DNA from: Halomonas sp. THAF5a
GTDB taxonomy: Bacteria > Pseudomonadota > Gammaproteobacteria > Pseudomonadales > Halomonadaceae
DNA length: 64,000 nt
Reading direction: 5' to 3'
Assembly (NCBI RefSeq): GCF_009363755.1
Contig: NZ_CP045417.1
Location: 806,001 to 870,000 of the forward strand
Below the pieces are notes generated by a model, which was not told the origin of the DNA, did not search any database, and saw only the letters and a list, made by a program, of their open reading frames with translations. Position 1 is the stretch's first letter; the number at the start of each line of letters is the position of its first letter. Both the position numbers and the translations under genes were made by a program. This document shows positions 9,568 to 17,115 of this stretch, piece by piece.

Positions 9568-10602
9568 TCAGCGAGCGGACTCGACCTCCTGGAAGATGTG
9601 CTCCATATCCAGCGTGGAGTGCTCGCCCAGCGCCGCAAAGTGATCGGCCAGCCAGGCCTCGGTGGCCTCGCGCCCCAGGTCGTACAGATGGCAGAGGAAG
9701 GCCCATTCGGCATTGAGCTTGCTGGATACCGAGAGGTGCGACAGCGGCTCATCCCCGCTGAGGTGGTGGAGCCTGGCCTCGCCGTAGCAGCCGATGTCGA
9801 TGTCGTGCTCGCCGAGAAGCTTCTGCAGCGTCGCGATCATGCGCACTTCCTTGATCAGGGCGGCATTGAAGGTGATCTCGTTGAGCCGGTTGAGGATGTC
9901 GGCGGCGCTGGTGGGCAACTCCTCACGGCGCATGGGCGTGATCTGCACCAGCAGGATGTCGCCCGCCGTGCAGTCGTGCAGCAGGGGCGAGAGCGAGGGG
10001 TTGCCCATGTAGCCGCCGTCCCAGTAGGCCTCGCCGTCGATCTCCACGGCCTGGAAGACGGTGGGCAGGCAGGCCGAGGCCATCACCGCATCGAGACTCA
10101 TCTCCTCTCGGGAAAAGATGCGCTGCTTGCCGCTGCGCACATTGGTGGCAGTGACGAAGAGCTTGAGCCGCTCGCAGGCTCGCACTCGATCGAAATCGAC
10201 CCGCTCGGCGACGATGTCGCGCAGCGGATTGAGATTGAAGGGGTTGAAGTGGTAGGGCGAGACCAGCCGGCTCATCAGGTCCAGGGCGATGTAGCCGGGG
10301 GAGTGGTCGAGGCTCCAGTTGCCGGTCATCACGTCCAGCGGGGTGCGGCGCACGGGGCTTGCCATGCCGGCTCGGCTCACCGCTTGCCAGAAGTCACGTA
10401 GCGCCTGTCGGGCGGTCGCCTCGTCGCCGCGGGTCAGGGCGTCGGCCATCACCACGCCGTTCATGGCCCCGGCACTGGTGCCACTGATGCCCTCGATCTC
10501 GATGCGTTCATCCTCGAGCAGGCGGTCCATCACACCCCACGTGAAGGCGCCGTGGGCGCCGCCACCCTGCAGGGCCAGGTCGAGCCGTTTTCTCTTGCTC
10601 AT
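9568..10602 (-). CDS. Patatin-like phospholipase family protein
   Basis: 344-residue cytoplasmic serine lipase. The glycine-rich oxyanion loop (ALQGGGAHGAF) is at the N-terminus, the nucleophile motif GTSAG near residues 41-45, and the catalytic Asp in YWDGGYMGNP. This Ser-Asp dyad is complete, so it should hydrolyse acyl esters of lipids. A C-terminal extension resembles the DUF3734-type tail of proteobacterial patatins. GGGAG lies upstream of the ATG. It stands 262 bases upstream of the phoH gene on the same strand, with no other gene between. Confidence 0.9.
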   Translation of the reverse strand: MSKRKRLDLALQGGGAHGAFTWGVMDRLLEDERIEIEGISGTSAGAMNGVVMADALTRGDEATARQALRDFWQAVSRAGMASPVRRTPLDVMTGNWSLDHSPGYIALDLMSRLVSPYHFNPFNLNPLRDIVAERVDFDRVRACERLKLFVTATNVRSGKQRIFSREEMSLDAVMASACLPTVFQAVEIDGEAYWDGGYMGNPSLSPLLHDCTAGDILLVQITPMRREELPTSAADILNRLNEITFNAALIKEVRMIATLQKLLGEHDIDIGCYGEARLHHLSGDEPLSHLSVSSKLNAEWAFLCHLYDLGREATEAWLADHFAALGEHSTLDMEHIFQEVESAR

Positions 10603-10928: not shown

Positions 10929-10942
10929 CTTGGAAGTCCAAG
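10929..10942. promoter_or_regulatory. Candidate activator site upstream of the sigma-54 promoter
   Basis: CTTGGAAGTCCAAG has perfect 6-bp arms around AG and is centred about 63 bp before the -24 element. AT-rich sequence with AAATT/AATTT arms (10943-10956) follows, a plausible bending or IHF region. It may bind the activator encoded at 15706-17115. The remainder of the 526-base gap 10603-11128 is AT-rich, and I see no gene in it. Confidence 0.4.
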
Positions 10943-10979
10943 AAATTTATTAATTTGTCTCTTTTACAGTTGCTTACAT

Positions 10980-10995
10980 CGGCGACGCGTCGCCG
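10980..10995. repeat. 16-bp perfect palindrome abutting the sigma-54 -24 element
   Basis: CGGCGACGCGTCGCCG reads identically on both strands and ends directly before the TTGGCAC of the promoter. A protein bound here would contact or block sigma-54 polymerase, so a repressor site is possible. Confidence 0.6.
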
Positions 10996-11012
10996 TTGGC
11001 ACAGTTCATGCT
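10996..11012 (+). promoter_or_regulatory. Sigma-54 (-24/-12) promoter of the glycine-rich protein operon
   Basis: TTGGCAC (-24) with ATGCT (-12) gives the diagnostic GG-N10-GC spacing (GG 10998-10999, GC 11010-11011). It matches TGGCAC-N5-TTGCT except at one -12 base. Transcription would start near 11023, leaving about 106 bases of leader before the ATG at 11129. Confidence 0.75.
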
Positions 11013-11128
11013 CATGGCAATACGACTGCGAGCGGGAAGCGTCATTCAAGGGGGTCCAGTACCGGCAAGTCATGGACGCTGGCGCAAGTTCGCAGGCTGC
11101 AGCAGACACAACAAATGGAGACATGATC

Positions 11129-12277
11129 ATGAAAAAGCATCTTGTACTCGCGGGTACGCCCCTGCTGGCTCTGGTGTTGGCCATCTCCACGGCGCACGCC
11201 AACCCCGGGGTTGGGTATGCCGAGGGTGATGTTGACCAGCAGGTGGACTCGACCGCAAGGGCGGTCGGTGGAAACAGCGGCCATGCCAACGGTGGTGACG
11301 GTACCGGTCGGGGCGTTGGTGGACATGCCAATGGAGGAACCAACACCGACGACTCCAATGATGACGAGTCTTCCGGGGCCAATGGCGGCACTGGTGGCTA
11401 TGGCGCTGGTACCGGCATGGGCGGAGCCGGCGGCTCCACCGGTCGTGGCGGCGACGCCTGGGCCATGAGCGAGTCTCATAACACCTCCACCAACGTCATT
11501 TCGATGCAGGAGATGAATTCCGAGGTCAGTGGCATGGCAATCACCATCTATGGTGGCCAGGGCGCCCGTGGTGCTGCCGGTGGCTACGGCGGTGAGGCTT
11601 ATGCGGAGAGCTTCGGCGAGGGCACCGGCGGCGATGGCGGCGATGGCGACGGTGGTGATGGCGGTCTCGCCAGGGCGCACGTCGGCATGGCAGGCGATGG
11701 CGGTGATGGCAACGGCAACGGCACTGGCACCGGTACCGGTACCGGTACCGGCGGACACGCTAACGCCAATAACGCCGATACCTACGCCAATGGCGGAGCG
11801 GCCGACGGCTATGCGTCTGTCGATGCCGGTGACTTCGACGACGACAACACCAACGATGCCGCCAACGACAGCACCAATGGTGATGCCAACGCCAGCTCCG
11901 CCGCGGCGGGTGGCACCGCGGGCTCCGGCACTGGCACCGGATCAGGCACCGGGTCAGGCACTGGCACCGGTGGCGCTGGCGGTAACGGCGGCACGGCCAC
12001 GGCAGCCAGCGGCAACGGCGGCGCCGGCAACGGCGGCGGCGGTGGCATGGGTCAGGGCACTGGCGGCAATGCCTATGCCTATGCCGGTAACGGCGGCGCC
12101 GGCGGCGACGGCGGCGACGGCGGGGCAGCCAGTCTGGCCACCGGAGCAGCCAACGTCTCCGTGGGAGGCGGTGTGTTCGGTGGTATCAACAACATGAACG
12201 TGTCCACTGGCCTTTACAACTCCCAGCTGTCCGGCACCAGCGTGGCGGCTCACAGCAACGTGAGCATCGGCAACTGA
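11129..12277 (+). CDS. Secreted glycine-rich repeat protein, candidate matrix/fibre subunit
   Basis: 382 residues with a clear Sec signal peptide (MKKHLVLAGTPLLALVLA to STAHA, cleavage near residue 24). The mature chain is dominated by Gly, Asn, Ala, Thr and Asp in low-complexity runs such as GGDGGDGDGGDGG, GTGTGTGTG and NGGAGG. A non-repetitive segment (about residues 115-150, SESHNTSTNVISMQEMNSEVSG) interrupts them, and an ordered-looking C-terminus ends NVSIGN. There are no Cys residues and no RTX nonapeptides. GGAG lies 8 bases before the ATG at 11129; the ATG two codons earlier is less well placed. First gene of a probable four-gene operon with a C39 peptidase-like protein. I know no named family; a structural extracellular protein is inferred. 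Confidence 0.8.
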   Translation: MKKHLVLAGTPLLALVLAISTAHANPGVGYAEGDVDQQVDSTARAVGGNSGHANGGDGTGRGVGGHANGGTNTDDSNDDESSGANGGTGGYGAGTGMGGAGGSTGRGGDAWAMSESHNTSTNVISMQEMNSEVSGMAITIYGGQGARGAAGGYGGEAYAESFGEGTGGDGGDGDGGDGGLARAHVGMAGDGGDGNGNGTGTGTGTGTGGHANANNADTYANGGAADGYASVDAGDFDDDNTNDAANDSTNGDANASSAAAGGTAGSGTGTGSGTGSGTGTGGAGGNGGTATAASGNGGAGNGGGGGMGQGTGGNAYAYAGNGGAGGDGGDGGAASLATGAANVSVGGGVFGGINNMNVSTGLYNSQLSGTSVAAHSNVSIGN

Positions 12278-12315
12278 TCCGGAGCGCATGACGCGTTGAG
12301 ACGACGCAAGCGTCG

Positions 12316-12345
12316 GGAGCCGGTGGGGGACACTCCACTGGCTCC
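12316..12345 (+). terminator. Intra-operon hairpin after the glycine-rich protein gene
   Basis: GGAGCCGGTGG pairs with CCACTGGCTCC with one mismatch. There is no U-run. It may act as an attenuator or 3' stabiliser that favours the first gene over downstream genes, or be incidental. Confidence 0.4.
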
Positions 12346-12387
12346 TCGATCAAGTGTCCCTGTGGTCGCCGTTCGGGAGTTCACGCC

Positions 12388-12867
12388 ATGAATCACGTCA
12401 TCACATGCACGACCATCAGTTCCTACCCCGCCCGTAGCCGTCATCGCCGTACGACGCCGATGGCCTTCCTCCTGGCGACGCTGCTGCTGGCGGGGGCATC
12501 GAGTAGTCAGGCGGAGACGAGGACCTCCCTGTACCACGAAGCCGCCGTCGTTGGAGGTGGCATCGGTGAACGGGTGAGTGAAGGCTTCGCGGCCATGGAG
12601 CGGCTGGATCTCTCCGCGATGGAGGACAGCAGGGCCCGGGAAGGGCAGATGACCGTCAACGTCAACACTGTCAAGAGCGTCCAGAAAATGCAGGCGTCGG
12701 TGAACGACACCTCATTTGATGTCGGGGGCAACATGGTGTCGGGGAACATCACCTTCGCGCCGGAAGCGCTGGGCAGCTATAGCGGCACCGGCATCTTCAG
12801 TGCCGTGACCGGCAACGGCAATTCCATCAACAGCGCGGTGGGCATCAGCGTGTTCATCGCCAACTGA
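12388..12867 (+). CDS. Small secreted protein of the glycine-rich protein operon
   Basis: 159 residues. A long basic N-region and hydrophobic core (MAFLLATLLLAGASSSQA) form a signal peptide, with cleavage near residue 43. The mature part has an acidic helix (GFAAMERLDLSAMEDSRAREG) and then a Gly/Asn/Ser-rich C-half ending GISVFIAN. That ending resembles the terminus of the preceding glycine-rich protein (NVSIGN). No known domain is recognised. GGGAG precedes the ATG at 12388; an internal ATG at 12460 would give a shorter signal peptide. Its position suggests a minor subunit, nucleator or chaperone for the glycine-rich protein. Confidence 0.75.
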   Translation: MNHVITCTTISSYPARSRHRRTTPMAFLLATLLLAGASSSQAETRTSLYHEAAVVGGGIGERVSEGFAAMERLDLSAMEDSRAREGQMTVNVNTVKSVQKMQASVNDTSFDVGGNMVSGNITFAPEALGSYSGTGIFSAVTGNGNSINSAVGISVFIAN

Positions 12868-12915
12868 CACGATGCACGTCCGTTGCACGACGCGCCCACC
12901 GAGGAACCATTCGCC

Positions 12916-13620
12916 ATGAGTGTGCATCGACACGTCTATTGCGGGCTGGCATCACTGCTGCTCATTGCGGGCAGCGTGGAGGCCCTTGCCGGTCAGGTCT
13001 CTATCGCCAACCGGTTCGGCAACTTCCAGGTCGAGGCCAAGAGCCTGCAGGAGAAAGGCTGGGATCGGGTGATTCGACAGCAGTACGACTATAGCTGCGG
13101 GTCGGCCGCCGTGGCCACCCTGCTGACGTACCACTACCAGCGCGACACCTCCGAGGCCGAGGTCTTCGAGACGATGATTCGTGCCGGCGATGCCGAGCAG
13201 ATTCAGCGTCACGGGTTTTCCATGCTGGACATGAAGCGCTATCTGGATCGCCGCGGGCTCAACGCCGACGGCTTCCGGATCTCGCTGGATGATTTCATTC
13301 GCGTCGGCGTTCCGGCCATCACCATGGTGAATACCGGAGGCTACAAGCACTTCGTCGTCGTCAAGGGTATCGATGACGACAATATTCTGGTGGGAGATCC
13401 CGCTGTCGGGACGCTGGTAGTGCCTCGCGAGCAGTTCGAGCAGCTGTGGAGCGGGACGGTCCTCGGTGCTCGTGCCGAGATCGAAGTGGCCCGCCGGCAT
13501 TTCAATCATGATCAGGACTGGGCCGTGCGCCCTGACTCTCCGCTCGCCAGGGGCGTGAATCGCTCGAGCGTCGGTGCCAGCCTGCTGACCCTGCCCGCCT
13601 ACAACGAGCTGGGGCGTTAA
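12916..13620 (+). CDS. Periplasmic C39 peptidase-like protein (FapD-like)
   Basis: 234 residues with a signal peptide (cleavage near residue 26, VEALAGQ). The peptidase C39 fold is visible: QQYDYSCGSAAVATLL with oxyanion Gln and Cys61, GGYKHFVVVKGI with His145, and VGDPAVG with Asp161, so the catalytic set is complete. Unlike C39 domains of bacteriocin exporters it is free-standing and exported, as in FapD of the Pseudomonas Fap amyloid system. There it is needed for secretion, probably by processing a component. Start chosen at ATG 12916 with GAGGAA upstream. Its substrate here is probably one of the operon's secreted proteins. Confidence 0.88.
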   Translation: MSVHRHVYCGLASLLLIAGSVEALAGQVSIANRFGNFQVEAKSLQEKGWDRVIRQQYDYSCGSAAVATLLTYHYQRDTSEAEVFETMIRAGDAEQIQRHGFSMLDMKRYLDRRGLNADGFRISLDDFIRVGVPAITMVNTGGYKHFVVVKGIDDDNILVGDPAVGTLVVPREQFEQLWSGTVLGARAEIEVARRHFNHDQDWAVRPDSPLARGVNRSSVGASLLTLPAYNELGR

Positions 13621-13635
13621 CGAGGAGATGGCACG

Positions 13636-14334
13636 ATGAACTCTCGAGCTTTGGGAGGAAGGAGGGCGAGCCGGCTGGGCGTCGCCCTCGTGACGGCGCT
13701 ATGCCTAACGGCGGTCTCCCAGGCGGAGACGCTCTCTTCTGGAGGGCCAACCATGGCGCTCCAACGACAATCGCTGTCCTCGCTCCAGGACGCGGACAGG
13801 CTCTATGCCGAGGTCTCGCGTTCTCGGGGTGCTCGGGATGGTTTCCACCGCGGGGCGGTGATCGCGGATGATGAGATGGGCCAGATGCGTGCCGGCTTCA
13901 ACTTCGGAGGACTCGACGTGGACTTCGGCGCTCGTCTTCAGACCCTGATCGACAACCGCGTCGAGCTGGTGTCCGTTGTGAACTTCACCCGGGCAGGGGC
14001 CAATATCGTCTCCCAGACCTTCAGTGATCCTGGCGGGAGCGCGATGCAGGTGGGCAACGGTGCCGTCTCGGTGACCGACGTGACGCCTGTTGGGGTGAAT
14101 CTGGCGGGCCTGGCCGATTTTTCGGGGATCGCCTTGAACGATACCAAGGGGTTCACCACCGCCCTGCATAATATCACCCGGGACGCCATCGTCAGCGGCG
14201 TGGTCAGCAACGCCTCGGGGCGAGATATTCAGCAGCGTCTCGATATCAATGTTCGGCTCAATAACCTCGGTGCCCTGGATGCGGCCAGGAAACGGGCTGC
14301 GATAGTGGAGTCCTTCTCCGGTATCCTGCGTTGA
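13636..14334 (+). CDS. Secreted protein of the glycine-rich protein operon
   Basis: 232 residues with a signal peptide (cleavage near residue 30, VSQA/ETL). A helical segment is followed by IADDEMGQMRAGFNFGGLDVDFGARLQTLIDNR. The DDEMGQMRAG stretch resembles the acidic, helical leader that precedes C39 cleavage sites, although it ends Ala-Gly rather than Gly-Gly. The rest is rich in Asn, Val and Thr and looks beta-stranded. No named family recognised. GAGGAG precedes the ATG, 15 bases after the C39 gene, so cotranscription is likely. A FapE-like accessory or minor subunit role is possible. Confidence 0.75.
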   Translation: MNSRALGGRRASRLGVALVTALCLTAVSQAETLSSGGPTMALQRQSLSSLQDADRLYAEVSRSRGARDGFHRGAVIADDEMGQMRAGFNFGGLDVDFGARLQTLIDNRVELVSVVNFTRAGANIVSQTFSDPGGSAMQVGNGAVSVTDVTPVGVNLAGLADFSGIALNDTKGFTTALHNITRDAIVSGVVSNASGRDIQQRLDINVRLNNLGALDAARKRAAIVESFSGILR

Positions 14335-14371
14335 TATCGGCTATCCCATTTTTATGTCATCGGATGAGAGT

Positions 14372-14411
14372 ACAACACGAGGCTGCTCTTGCGGGGCAGC
14401 CTCGTTGTTGT
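14372..14411. terminator. Hairpin between convergent genes
   Basis: Arms CGAGGCTGC and GCAGCCTCG, extended by ACAAC/GTTGT, lie between the end of the four-gene operon and the end of the barrel gene. It could terminate both; U-runs are weak. Confidence 0.6.
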
Positions 14412-14447
14412 CATCTGCTCATTGCTTGTTGCGATGCGTGTCCATTC

Positions 14448-15566
14448 CTAGAAGACGTTCATGCCGATGGGCATGCGCAGGGTCAGGGTGGTATCCGGGG
14501 CATCCTCGGTAATGCCGAGCTCGAGCCCGAGATTGACGTTCACGTCGGGGCTCAGCGCGTAGTTCCAACCCAGCAGCAGGGACCCCACGTTCAGTGTCTG
14601 CGATTCTACCCGGGTCGTGCTGCCATTGTCTGTGTTCACGTATTCGGTCTTGGTCTTGCCGATGAAGTCATTCTTGTAACCCAGGGTGAACGACGTGCGA
14701 GGATTGATCGCATAGGCCATGCCGAAGCTCAGGCGTACCGCGTCGCCCGGATCGACGTCGCCCACAACAACATTGACGGGACTGCCATCATTATCCTCGC
14801 CAGATAGATTCTGGTTAACATTATCTTCGAGATGAAAGACATAGCCCAGGTTGGCGAAGTAGACCGCCGGCGCCGAGGGCAGCAGCATGGTGATGCTGGG
14901 TTCGATCGAGTGAAAGCCGGTGCCGGTCGAGAGCTCCAGCGGGTTGCCCGAGCTGTCTCGATCGATATCGAAGGGGCCAGTGCCGGTGGTGCTCTTGTAG
15001 CGCAGGTTGCCGATGAAGAAGGGCATGCCGTTTTGCCCGCGGTTCAGCTGATAGTGGGCCGCCAGTTCGATGTCGCCCAGGCCGTCGCCGGAGAGTTCCC
15101 GGTCGAGGCTGAAGACATCATCTTGGCTATCCTCGATGGGGACGTTGACCCTCTCGTTCTCGTCCCGATAGACGTAGGGCACCTTCATCTCGAGCTCCAG
15201 TCGGTCGGTGAAGCCCAGGCGGCCGGTGAGAGACGCCGTGTAGTTATCGCGGTCGACGTCCTGGGCCGTGAATACCCCGATCAGCAGCGTGCTGAGCACG
15301 CTGACCCCTTCGAAGGTCATGCGGTTGATGCTTTCGTGCGAGTACTGGAATTCGGGCTCCAGAATGAGCCGGCCCTTGGGCGTGAGCACCCCTCCGTACT
15401 CGGCGGCGGCCTGGACCTGTGGCCGTCGTGCCTCCTGTGCTTCGGGTTCCTGGCCCACCGGTTGGATCTGAGCGTTCTGTGCTGCCTCCTGGGCTAGGGC
15501 CGGCAGGCAGGCAACCATCGTGAGAAGGCCCGCAGCATAGCGGATGGTGGTGTTTCCTGAGCTCAT
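14448..15566 (-). CDS. Outer-membrane beta-barrel protein, FapF-like transporter
   Basis: 372 residues with a signal peptide (cleavage near residue 26, ALAQ/EAA). A Gln/Glu/Ala-rich periplasmic stretch of about 40 residues is followed by alternating amphipathic strands to a C-terminal Phe (MPIGMNVF), the mark of an outer-membrane barrel. The entry segment LTPKGRLILEPEFQYSHESINR and TGRLGFTDRLELEMKVPYVYRDENERV resemble FapF-type channels. It would export the glycine-rich protein or its partners. It is convergent with the operon rather than inside it. AGGA lies about 9 bases before the chosen ATG. The assignment to the FapF family is from memory. Confidence 0.75.
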   Translation of the reverse strand: MSSGNTTIRYAAGLLTMVACLPALAQEAAQNAQIQPVGQEPEAQEARRPQVQAAAEYGGVLTPKGRLILEPEFQYSHESINRMTFEGVSVLSTLLIGVFTAQDVDRDNYTASLTGRLGFTDRLELEMKVPYVYRDENERVNVPIEDSQDDVFSLDRELSGDGLGDIELAAHYQLNRGQNGMPFFIGNLRYKSTTGTGPFDIDRDSSGNPLELSTGTGFHSIEPSITMLLPSAPAVYFANLGYVFHLEDNVNQNLSGEDNDGSPVNVVVGDVDPGDAVRLSFGMAYAINPRTSFTLGYKNDFIGKTKTEYVNTDNGSTTRVESQTLNVGSLLLGWNYALSPDVNVNLGLELGITEDAPDTTLTLRMPIGMNVF

Positions 15567-15705
15567 GGCTTCCGTCCTGTTTTCTTGTTGCTTGTCAGGC
15601 GCCTCACCGGCGATGCCTCGAGACGCACAGTGATCCCCGTTGCTTGGACCCATTCCCCCTGGGCTTAGCCGACATTCTCCGGCACGAACCGGTCTCGACT
15701 AATGT

Positions 15706-17115
15706 TCAGGTTAGTTGAATCGTCTTGGATGTCGACGGAAAGTCTGATGCCGACTCATCCTGGCCGCCGTTCCTGTCGATGCCATGTTTCTCGAGCAGTC
15801 GATACAGGGTGACCCGAGAGATGCCGAGCTCGCGCGACGCGTGCAGTATCTTGTGCTTGTTGCGCGCCAGCGCGGCCTTGATCGCTTCGCACTCTGCTGT
15901 ATCGCGGGCCTGCTGCAGGGAATCGGCGTCCCGTGAGTGTCCATTGCGCCGTTCCAGCCCCAGGTCGCCGGGGCTGATCAGGCGATGCTCGCACATGATC
16001 ATGGCGCGCCTGACCCGGTTCACCATCTCGCGGATGTTTCCCGGCCAGCGATGCTGTTGCATCACCACCAGGCTGTCGTGACGGAATCCTCGCACCTTGA
16101 TCGGCTTGTCGTCGGAGAAGCGGTGAAAGAAGAAATTGGCCAGTGGCTCGATATCTTCCGGGTGCTCCCTGAGCGCGGGCGTCTGCACCTGCAGGACATT
16201 GAGCCGGTGGTAGAGGTCTTCCCTGAACTCCCCCTTCTCGACGGCCTGCTCGAGATCGACATGGGTCGCCGCCAGTACCCTGACATCGACGGGGATCTCC
16301 TTGAGTCCGCCGACACGAAACACCGTCAGGGTTTCCAGGAACCGCAGCAGATTGACCTGCATGTCCAGGGGAAGGTCGCCGATCTCGTCCAGGAAGAGCG
16401 TGCCGTCCTGTGAATTCTCGATGATGCCGGGCTTGCGCTGATTCGCGCCGGTGAAGGCGCCCTTTTCATGGCCGAAGAGCTCCGACTGGATGAGTCCTGC
16501 GGGCAGCGCGCCGCAGTTGACGACGTTGAAGGGCCCGTGACGACGCGACGAGAGATCGTGAATGGCCCGAGCCGTGAGCTCCTTGCCGGTGCCGGACTCT
16601 CCCGTGATCAGCACGGGGGCGTCGAAGGCGGCCACCTTGTGGATGGTGCGGTAGAGATGCTGCATGACCGGCGTATCGCCCACCATGCGCAAGTCTCCAT
16701 CATGACAGCCCGCTCGGCAGGCGTCGTGTTGGTCCTTGAGCTTGGCCATGCCCAAGGCGCTCTCCAGGAGCACGCTAACGCTGCGGGCGTCGAGAGGAGC
16801 TGCCAGATAGGCAAAGCAGTCGCTATAGATCATATCGCGAGCCTTGTCGCTGAGCCGGTCGATATTCTCCACCAGCACGACCCAGTGAAGGGCTGAGAGC
16901 CCGGGGTAGCGTTCCAGCTCGAGCGGAAAGGAGTCGGCTCCTTCCCTGAGAAAGATCAGCCCTATCTTGCAGTCATTCTTGCCGATGAACCCCAGCGCCT
17001 CTGTGAGATCGTCGGCCTGGAAAATCGACCAGTCATGGTGGGGGAGCTCCTCGATGATGGCCTGAAACAGCAAGTGATTGCCGATGGCCATGATCTGCCG
17101 AGATGATTCCATCAT
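15706..17115 (-). CDS. Sigma-54-dependent activator with degenerate receiver domain
   Basis: 469 residues. The N-terminal 125 residues look like a receiver fold without the phospho-acceptor Asp (LIFLREGA at the expected strand), as in VpsR/FleQ-type regulators. The AAA+ domain has Walker A GESGTGKE (172-179), the sigma-54 contact GAFTGA (219-224) and Walker [12 protein letters not shown] Fis-type helix-turn-helix ([21 protein letters not shown]) ends it. It should activate sigma-54 promoters, probably the one at 10996. Sensing may involve cyclic di-GMP, as in VpsR and FleQ; this is inference. The start at 17115 has AAGGACAACGG upstream. Confidence 0.88.

Follow-up and report, generated by a model that had tools for sequence, protein, structure and literature searches.

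Fap, the functional amyloid system of Pseudomonas (FapABCDEF), combines a small and a large subunit with FapD, a C39-type protease, and FapF, an outer-membrane barrel. FapD works in the periplasm, and its Cys residue is required for secretion (Rouse 2017, PMC5557850). Published accounts describe the FapD target as unclear or still to be determined, with suspicion on FapE and also on FapF (PMC5557850, PMC6173800). By mass spectrometry, FapE alone among the Fap proteins was completely processed at its N-terminus (Rouse 2017, PMC5557850), and a review of 2025 states that FapD is thought to process the N-terminus of FapE and a part of FapF (PMC12822426). According to a survey of 2013, Fap occurs in beta-, gamma- and deltaproteobacteria only (PMC3792158). 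Here and below, statements on published work hold for the passages of the cited articles that deal with the point in question. The subject of this report is a locus of six genes (11129-17115) in a 64,000-nucleotide stretch of Halomonas sp. THAF5a (NZ_CP045417.1, positions 806,001 to 870,000), which we call the window. The genes encode a Gly-rich exported protein (GRP), two small exported proteins (S2 and S4), an exported C39 protease, a FapF-like barrel and a sigma-54 activator. We think, with a probability of roughly 0.7, that the locus encodes a Fap-like nucleation and secretion system which belongs to a clade beside canonical Fap and has a Gly-rich subunit.

The locus resembles Fap in its FapD-like exported C39 protease, its FapF-like barrel, its putative small and large subunits, a probably FapE-related protein with the same kind of leader, and its apparent control by an enhancer-binding protein, as by BrfA in P. 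fluorescens (PMC13101488). Unlike Fap, it has a protease of a separate clade; GRP, S2 and S4 are missed by the FapB, FapC and FapE models; one short C-terminal module stands in place of the Fap repeats, with a Gly-rich bulk; and the barrel gene is convergent with the others, the activator gene adjoining it. No counterpart of FapA was recognised among the six genes, no separate search having been aimed at FapA.

Three other systems are similar in part. The nap island of Neisseria (NapA-C, NapP, NapF) also has a C39 protease, a FapF-related barrel and a double-Gly motif in its substrates, but these substrates are small cationic peptides promoting autolysis, and the passages of its description mention no large low-complexity subunit (PMC11798529). 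The LahT/PCAT double-glycine protease transporters share the C39 fold family, the active site and the leader spacing Leu-12, Glu-8, Leu-7 (PMC6363468), but their protease is part of an ATP-binding cassette transporter on the cytosolic side, whereas that of our locus is exported and stands alone. The putative pilus system Fil of Acinetobacter is matched by our protease (FilB model, expectation value (E) 9e-37) and barrel (FilC model, E 3e-20), but with scores far under the curated cut-offs (127 against 475 bits and 73 against 630 bits); GRP, S2 and S4 had no match to the Fil models at E 1.

Six genes and a separate clade of proteases

The genes of GRP, S2, the C39 protease and S4 all lie on the + strand, and those of the barrel and the activator on the opposite strand. 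The first-pass annotation, made from this stretch alone, had described such an arrangement, with a convergent barrel gene ending in Phe and a sigma-54 activator, and had set the start of the locus at 10929, which is upstream of the conserved GRP start. The reading frames are present, and the same order of six genes is kept in 18 of the 18 named Halomonas/Vreelandella loci; the locus is thus not a product of chance. All six genes were within the fetched stretch in 36 of 37 Halomonadaceae loci, so that the expected conservation of the neighbourhood in this family also held. L053 and the window stand outside this count, and L103-L105, being repeats of L006, L016 and L018, were counted once. L099 was the single locus of the 37 without a recognisable GRP, and its frame looked broken or misread.

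Residues 63-366 of the barrel matched the FapF crystal chains 5O65, 5O67 and 5O68 with E values of 1e-29 to 9e-29, which bears out the relation to FapF that had been suspected. In the comparison with the NCBIfam FapF model, the barrel scored 143 bits (E 1.2e-41) against a family cut-off of 700, and we therefore regard it as a homologue rather than FapF proper. Likewise, the C39 protease was found to be FapD-like, as had been proposed: it matched the FapD model with E 4e-40 (137 bits, cut-off 330), and its Cys61, His145 and Asp161 were aligned with the same residues of the solved double-glycine protease 6MPZ (E 3.7e-8). We take these three residues, all of which are present, to be the catalytic triad of the C39 family. 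A signal peptide was recognised by eye at the N-terminus of the protease.

The host genome is 3.8 Mb in a single contig. Its closest named relatives are Halomonas, and its protease is 94% like that of H. denitrificans. A family sample of 151 genomes gave a protease match in 45, of which 33 reached at least 228 bits; the best places were read for 23 of these 33 (window included), and all belong to the clade of this locus. Other protease genes came from a class sample (49 of 369 genomes matching), a phylum sample (39 of 398) and plasmid records. In the tree of 105 proteases there were three groups, namely, canonical Fap (28 rows, support 100/98), a third group (99/88), and the clade of this locus (66 rows, 100/97), which spans gamma-, beta- and alphaproteobacteria. 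Within the last, L053, which comes from another family, joins Halomonadaceae in a single branch (39 rows, 100/97), and the alphaproteobacterial members include plasmid-borne loci of Croceicoccus, Polymorphobacter and Indioceanicola. Identical rows were left out of the tree, as were L051 and, with broken protease frames, L026 and L059; the window stands in for L001. It has long branches and three long-branch joins (the L075 group with L077, L062 with L067, L042 with L043). The root was set at the midpoint, and so our term "sister clade" is valid only for a root on or within the third group. In 10 of the 11 loci of this third group (L060-L067, L085-L087), no more than about 120 bp separate the barrel gene from the protease gene; the loci consist of a C39 protease and a FapF-like barrel, mostly without an intervening gene.

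The class-sample loci that were fetched came from 16 genomes with a canonical locus and 15 with a sister-clade locus, two of these having both; the counts rest on 40 fetched places, apart from lower-scoring matches. In the genome of the window itself, a second locus (G000:C1 about 3009500-3023000, L002/L031) matched the FapB, FapC, FapE and FapF models of NCBIfam, under their curated cut-offs. That is, a canonical Fap operon and the present system coexist in one genome. Stretches from the genomes G762, G779, G801 and G868 (L091, L089, L098, L096) carry both systems within 19-20 kb. The first-pass annotation had supposed a related export system with an exchanged subunit. The Fap-like machinery stood, but the protease tree indicates that this machinery is that of a separate clade present in many Proteobacteria, not a Fap operon with a swapped subunit.

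Subunits of the clade

Mature GRP contains 32% Gly, no Cys and no Lys, and its net charge is -30, its signal peptide having been set by eye. A polyglycine-II fibre would call for Gly triplet periodicity and packed helices. The Gly residues are only mildly periodic (ratio 1.32 for pairs at spacing 3, 1.40 for those at spacing 2), and the AlphaFold model of GRP, with a predicted local distance difference test (pLDDT) value of 36, was uninformative, so that these data do not demonstrate a polyglycine fold. GRP, S2 and S4 gave no match to the FapB, FapC and FapE models at E 1. As a positive control, the FapB and FapC models matched the canonical operon of the same genome but neither GRP nor S2.

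The subunits of the clade are composed of a hypervariable low-complexity sequence, Asn/Ser/Asp-rich or Gly-rich, and a short C-terminal module common with S2. Sister-clade loci with recognisable subunits have one or two large low-complexity exported proteins ahead of S2. The Gly content of the GRPs was 27-35% (L099 set aside), and it was 23-32% in the subunits of Cupriavidus (L022), of its tree neighbours L058, L079, L080 and L084, and of L049. The subunits of L048, L052, L054-L057 and L075 had 2-8% Gly and 17-29% Asn, and the remaining loci were intermediate. Thus, the Gly-rich composition is one end of a spectrum of low-complexity subunits, and its occurrence in separate branches of the tree means that the trait was gained or lost more than once. 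In L075 the subunit, S2 and C39 genes are tandemly duplicated, with near-identical proteins.

By eye, nearly all of the subunits finish in a short module of the kind FxxxxGIxxxxQNxGxxSxxQQxVxVxAN. In profile comparisons, from which the S4 of L001, L022, L025, L052, L053 and L078 and the S2 of L021 and L025 were left aside, the ends of the sister-clade subunits outside Halomonadaceae matched S2 with E 5.3e-9 (0 of 40 column shuffles as high). The GRP module matched the S2 of Halomonadaceae with E 5.7e-4; none of 40 shuffles was as high, the top shuffle being close (22.7, against a score of 23.7). With the other sister-clade subunits it gave E 0.011 (1 of 200 shuffles as high). For the subunits outside Halomonadaceae, the match to the canonical FapC repeats was marginal (2 of 200 shuffles as high); for GRP itself, a direct relation to these repeats was not significant. 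Segments of the type VVAxSxLxGxVTG in distant subunits look, by eye only, like the internal conserved segment of GRP. These comparisons suggest that S2 and GRP relate somewhat as FapB and FapC do, although the descent of GRP from a Fap repeat is not proven. The claim that the subunit differs from FapB and FapC was thus right in that GRP and S2 miss both models, but S2 behaves as a counterpart of FapB and GRP as one of FapC, the two having a short C-terminal module in common.

The locus might instead be an ordinary Fap operon that has diverged, with fast-evolving subunits. The gene roles and their order are the same (large subunit, small subunit, FapD-like, FapE-like, barrel), the leader is FapE-like, and among 10 sister-clade subunits scanned, those of L045 and L046 matched FapB weakly (E 0.023 and 0.081), none coming near a Fap cut-off. 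However, the protease clade is separate with full support, and the Fap operon of the same genome is recognised by models that fail with GRP, S2 and S4. The barrels also differ, a [VLI]xT[PR]xG-type pre-barrel segment being present in 34 of 34 and 23 of 26 sister-clade barrels against 1 of 20 canonical ones. On the model misses, the separate clade and the same-genome control we rejected this explanation, which seems to us unlikely. The motif VGxPE before the barrel is no clean marker, because it was found in 21 of 34 and 16 of 26 sister-clade-only loci against 0 of 20 canonical-only loci. The FapF coiled coil was dropped as a discriminator: the barrel of the window and the canonical one of its genome both have a short pre-barrel stretch, and several further barrels of the sister clade have a long one.

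S4, FapE and a double-glycine-type leader

By profile comparison, the S4 proteins of Halomonadaceae are related to those of the remaining sister-clade loci (E 2.9e-14). The latter matched FapE with E 4.8e-8 over 35 columns, which comprise the leader LxDxELAxxRGxFxx and the residues following it (0 of 40 shuffles as high). These alignments suggest that sister-clade S4 proteins are FapE-related through the leader region. That the two small secreted proteins might find relatives among the Fap proteins was therefore correct in part: S2 and S4 themselves miss the FapB and FapE models, and the S4 profiles match FapE.

With the leader numbered backwards from its last residue, position -12 is Leu/Ile, -8 is Glu and -7 is Leu/Met; position -4 is often hydrophobic, -3 is Arg and -2 is Gly/Ala; position -1 is Gly in the sister clade and Lys/Arg in canonical FapE. 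Leaders that are cut by C39 proteases have Leu-12, three residues, Glu-8 and Leu-7 before a double glycine (PMC6363468). As judged from these residues, the spacing in S4 and canonical FapE, and less uniformly in S2, is that of the C39-cut double-glycine leaders. With Arg at -3, the pattern was found in 33 of 37 S4, 20 of 22 FapE and 23 of 38 S2 proteins (maximum in 300 shuffles 3, 2 and 2), compared with 0 of 49 C39 proteases and 3 of 68 subunits as controls. It is also present in L068-L070, whose downstream protein exceeds the curated FapE cut-off. Among 112 C39 rows, an S4 protein was picked for 96 and an S2 protein for 78, and sequences more than 70% alike were removed from the sets. Not counted were loci of the third branch, proteins picked wrongly as S4 (L052 and L053) or as S2 (L021), and the subunit rows L022_-485, L022_712, L043, L063, L079_844, L080_-422 and L099. 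Some third-branch loci have, upstream, a small exported protein with a leader-like stretch, for example LTEAQMDQVSAGA in L062.

In the structural model of S4 the confidence is low up to residue 91, with a better-modelled beta domain after it, and the predicted cut follows Gly87. A fold search with this model gave no match at E 0.001, the best PDB entry having E 0.08. The leader could give a concrete predicted cleavage site for FapD. The S4 of L045 (L045:7349-7831) had a weak Pfam match, under the cut-off, to RHIM (E 0.054). RHIM is an amyloid-forming motif of animal proteins.

The presence of the leader in S2 and S4 and, as a rule, not in the subunits would also suit a peptide export system, in which the protease and the barrel serve to mature S2 and S4 and to export them as signals or as peptides like bacteriocins, while GRP is a passenger with another role. 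The nap island is a precedent, as it unites a C39 protease, a FapF-related barrel and peptides with a GG motif (PMC11798529). However, the nearest characterised relatives of our genes are Fap parts, and wherever a subunit was recognised, a large low-complexity exported protein with the conserved C-terminal module precedes S2, as fapB and fapC precede fapD. We consider such peptide export improbable, more so than a diverged Fap operon. That the barrel is an uptake channel for hydrophobic compounds among unrelated neighbours, as a weak match to Pfam PF13557 (E 9e-4, under the cut-off) and the database name of its relatives, MetA-pathway of phenol degradation, might suggest, is very improbable, and we rejected it because the best solved structure match of the barrel is FapF; the conserved neighbourhood also stands against it.

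Regulation, mechanism and meaning

The proposal of sigma-54 control was supported by a -24/-12 site before GRP that is conserved in the aligned upstream regions of 11 relatives, and by the activator. Of 37 Halomonadaceae-clade loci, 33 have such a site 60-200 bp ahead of the first subunit (letter shuffles gave an expectation of 0.29), as do 10 of 22 other sister-clade loci (0.14 expected); L099 and five sister-clade loci without a recognised subunit are outside these counts, and the repeats L103-L105 were again counted once. The canonical value, 1 of 24, is no fair comparison, because the first gene found was often not the first of the operon. In the activator, the sigma-54 interaction domain was recognised with E 2.5e-68 and a VpsR-like domain at the N-terminus with E 3e-6 (Pfam). 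GAFTGA is present in it and in the activator homologue of 34 of 38 Halomonadaceae-clade loci. The fetched stretches contain an activator homologue for all 38 loci of the Halomonadaceae clade, for 11 of 27 others of the sister clade and for 23 of 27 canonical ones, and its presence therefore does not distinguish the sister clade. One such homologue is near the canonical-type operon L002/L031 of the same genome. In P. fluorescens the enhancer-binding protein BrfA senses cyclic di-GMP (c-di-GMP) and drives fap (PMC13101488), so the wiring may be common with Fap.

The 5' leader RNA between the promoter and GRP (110 nt) is strongly conserved in close Halomonas/Vreelandella loci. Its outer stem of 8 bp has two compensated pairs and no broken pair in 15 sequences. 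The window leader alone folded no better than shuffles (z -0.80), and no Rfam match was obtained at E 1. A model of this RNA, run over 34 sources, found it in L005, L016, L017, L020, L102 and the window, perhaps also in L092 (E 0.066), and in none of the other 27 at E 1. One copy was found in the genome.

From the sequences, synteny, phylogeny and motif that were observed, we infer an order of export, cleavage, a fibre and a biofilm role as follows. GRP, S2, S4 and the C39 protease, which carry predicted Sec-type signal peptides, would pass into the periplasm. There the protease is predicted, from the motif, its spacing and the S4 model, to remove the double-glycine-type leader of S4 and probably that of S2. 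By analogy with Fap, processed S4 would prime or gate the FapF-like barrel, and GRP and S2 would exit unfolded. S2 may then nucleate GRP via the short C-terminal module carried by both, the Gly-rich part forming the putative bulk of an acidic extracellular fibre or matrix. The promoter, recognised by its footprint only, would be under the activator encoded next to it, which may respond to c-di-GMP as BrfA does for fap.

Several points weigh against a Fap-like system with a Gly-rich subunit. The position of GRP outside the cell and its assembly into a fibre are predictions from the genes. The protease and barrel scores are far under the FapD and FapF cut-offs, and the activator homologue was in only 11 of 27 sister-clade stretches outside the Halomonadaceae clade. 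A protein database search gave no GRP homologue at E 0.001 among 7990 scored candidates, probably because of the composition of GRP. The GRP module was not significantly similar to the canonical FapC repeats (25 of 200 shuffles as high, with the reversed profile higher, 14.9 against 12.8). Taken alone, the S4 profile of Halomonadaceae matched FapE (E 7.2e-5) outside the leader, in a C-terminal stretch. As to the leader, its patterns were written after the data had been seen; the last residue in canonical FapE is Lys or Arg, not Gly; and the exact consensus of the literature (L...EL....G) was found in 11 of 22 FapE but in 3 of 37 S4 and 5 of 38 S2 proteins (0 of 49 proteases and 0 of 68 subunits as controls). 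The S2 of the window has Ala instead of Glu at -8, and its leader is therefore weaker than in relatives. The S4 model is of middling quality (mean pLDDT 62, predicted template modelling score 0.46), and Rouse 2017 also weighs FapF as the FapD target (PMC5557850).

The features of the locus are collected in Table 1. Upstream of it, on the minus strand, lies a gene at 9568-10602, whose product, judged by eye from the motifs GGGAHG and GTSAG, we take to resemble a patatin-type phospholipase.

Table 1. Positions of the genes, motifs and regulatory elements of the locus in the window
Feature	Position	Strand	Basis
Sigma-54 type -24/-12 promoter TGGCACAGTTCATGCT, 132 bp before the GRP start	10997..11012	+	
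Conserved 5' leader RNA of the GRP transcript, 8-bp outer stem	11010..11125	+	
GRP, Gly-rich exported protein, 382 aa; proposed main extracellular subunit (FapC counterpart)	11129..12277	+	reading frame, conserved start
GRP signal peptide, 24 aa	11129..11200	+	judged by eye; conserved in alignment
GRP internal conserved segment RGGDAWAMSES...NTSTxVISxQEMxSxVxG	11444..11554	+	alignment
GRP C-terminal module, final 48 aa; related to the S2 end and to those of other subunits in the sister clade	12131..12274	+	profile comparison
S2, small exported protein, 159 aa; proposed nucleator (FapB counterpart)	12388..12867	+	
S2 leader motif, residues 73-84 (Leu-12, Met-7, Arg-3, Ala-2, Arg-1)	12604..12639	+	
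Exported C39 protease, FapD-like, 234 aa, Cys61/His145/Asp161	12916..13620	+	
S4, exported protein, 232 aa, FapE-related	13636..14334	+	
S4 leader motif IADDEMGQMRAG, predicted cut after Gly87	13861..13896	+	motif and model
Outer-membrane barrel, FapF homologue, 372 aa, ends in Phe, short pre-barrel stretch	15566-14448	-	
Sigma-54 enhancer-binding activator, VpsR/REC-like N-terminus, Fis-type helix-turn-helix	17115-15706	-	

Full-text searches of the open-licence literature did not find this clade, its subunits or the leader in print. Colocalised fapD and fapF homologues beyond Fap have already been noted (PMC6173800), so the wider family is, on that description, not wholly unseen. Tentatively, and at somewhat less than even odds, we suggest a fibre-secretion superfamily larger than canonical Fap, which would be only one of its two branches, both of them similarly common. 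The second branch would export interchangeable low-complexity polymers, Asn/Ser/Asp-rich in some lineages and Gly-rich in Halomonadaceae and some others, tagged by a single Fap-like module, and in both branches the switch would be a C39 cut, made in the periplasm, at a double-glycine leader hidden in the FapE-type and nucleator-type proteins.

From the comparison comes an exact predicted site to test, both in Pseudomonas FapE and in this locus. Screens that require a FapB/C repeat, such as that in PMC12822426 as described there, would tend to miss this branch of Fap-like systems. Gly-rich and Asn-rich low-complexity proteins are apparently exported by one kind of machinery, which is relevant to the biology of biofilms and to protein materials.

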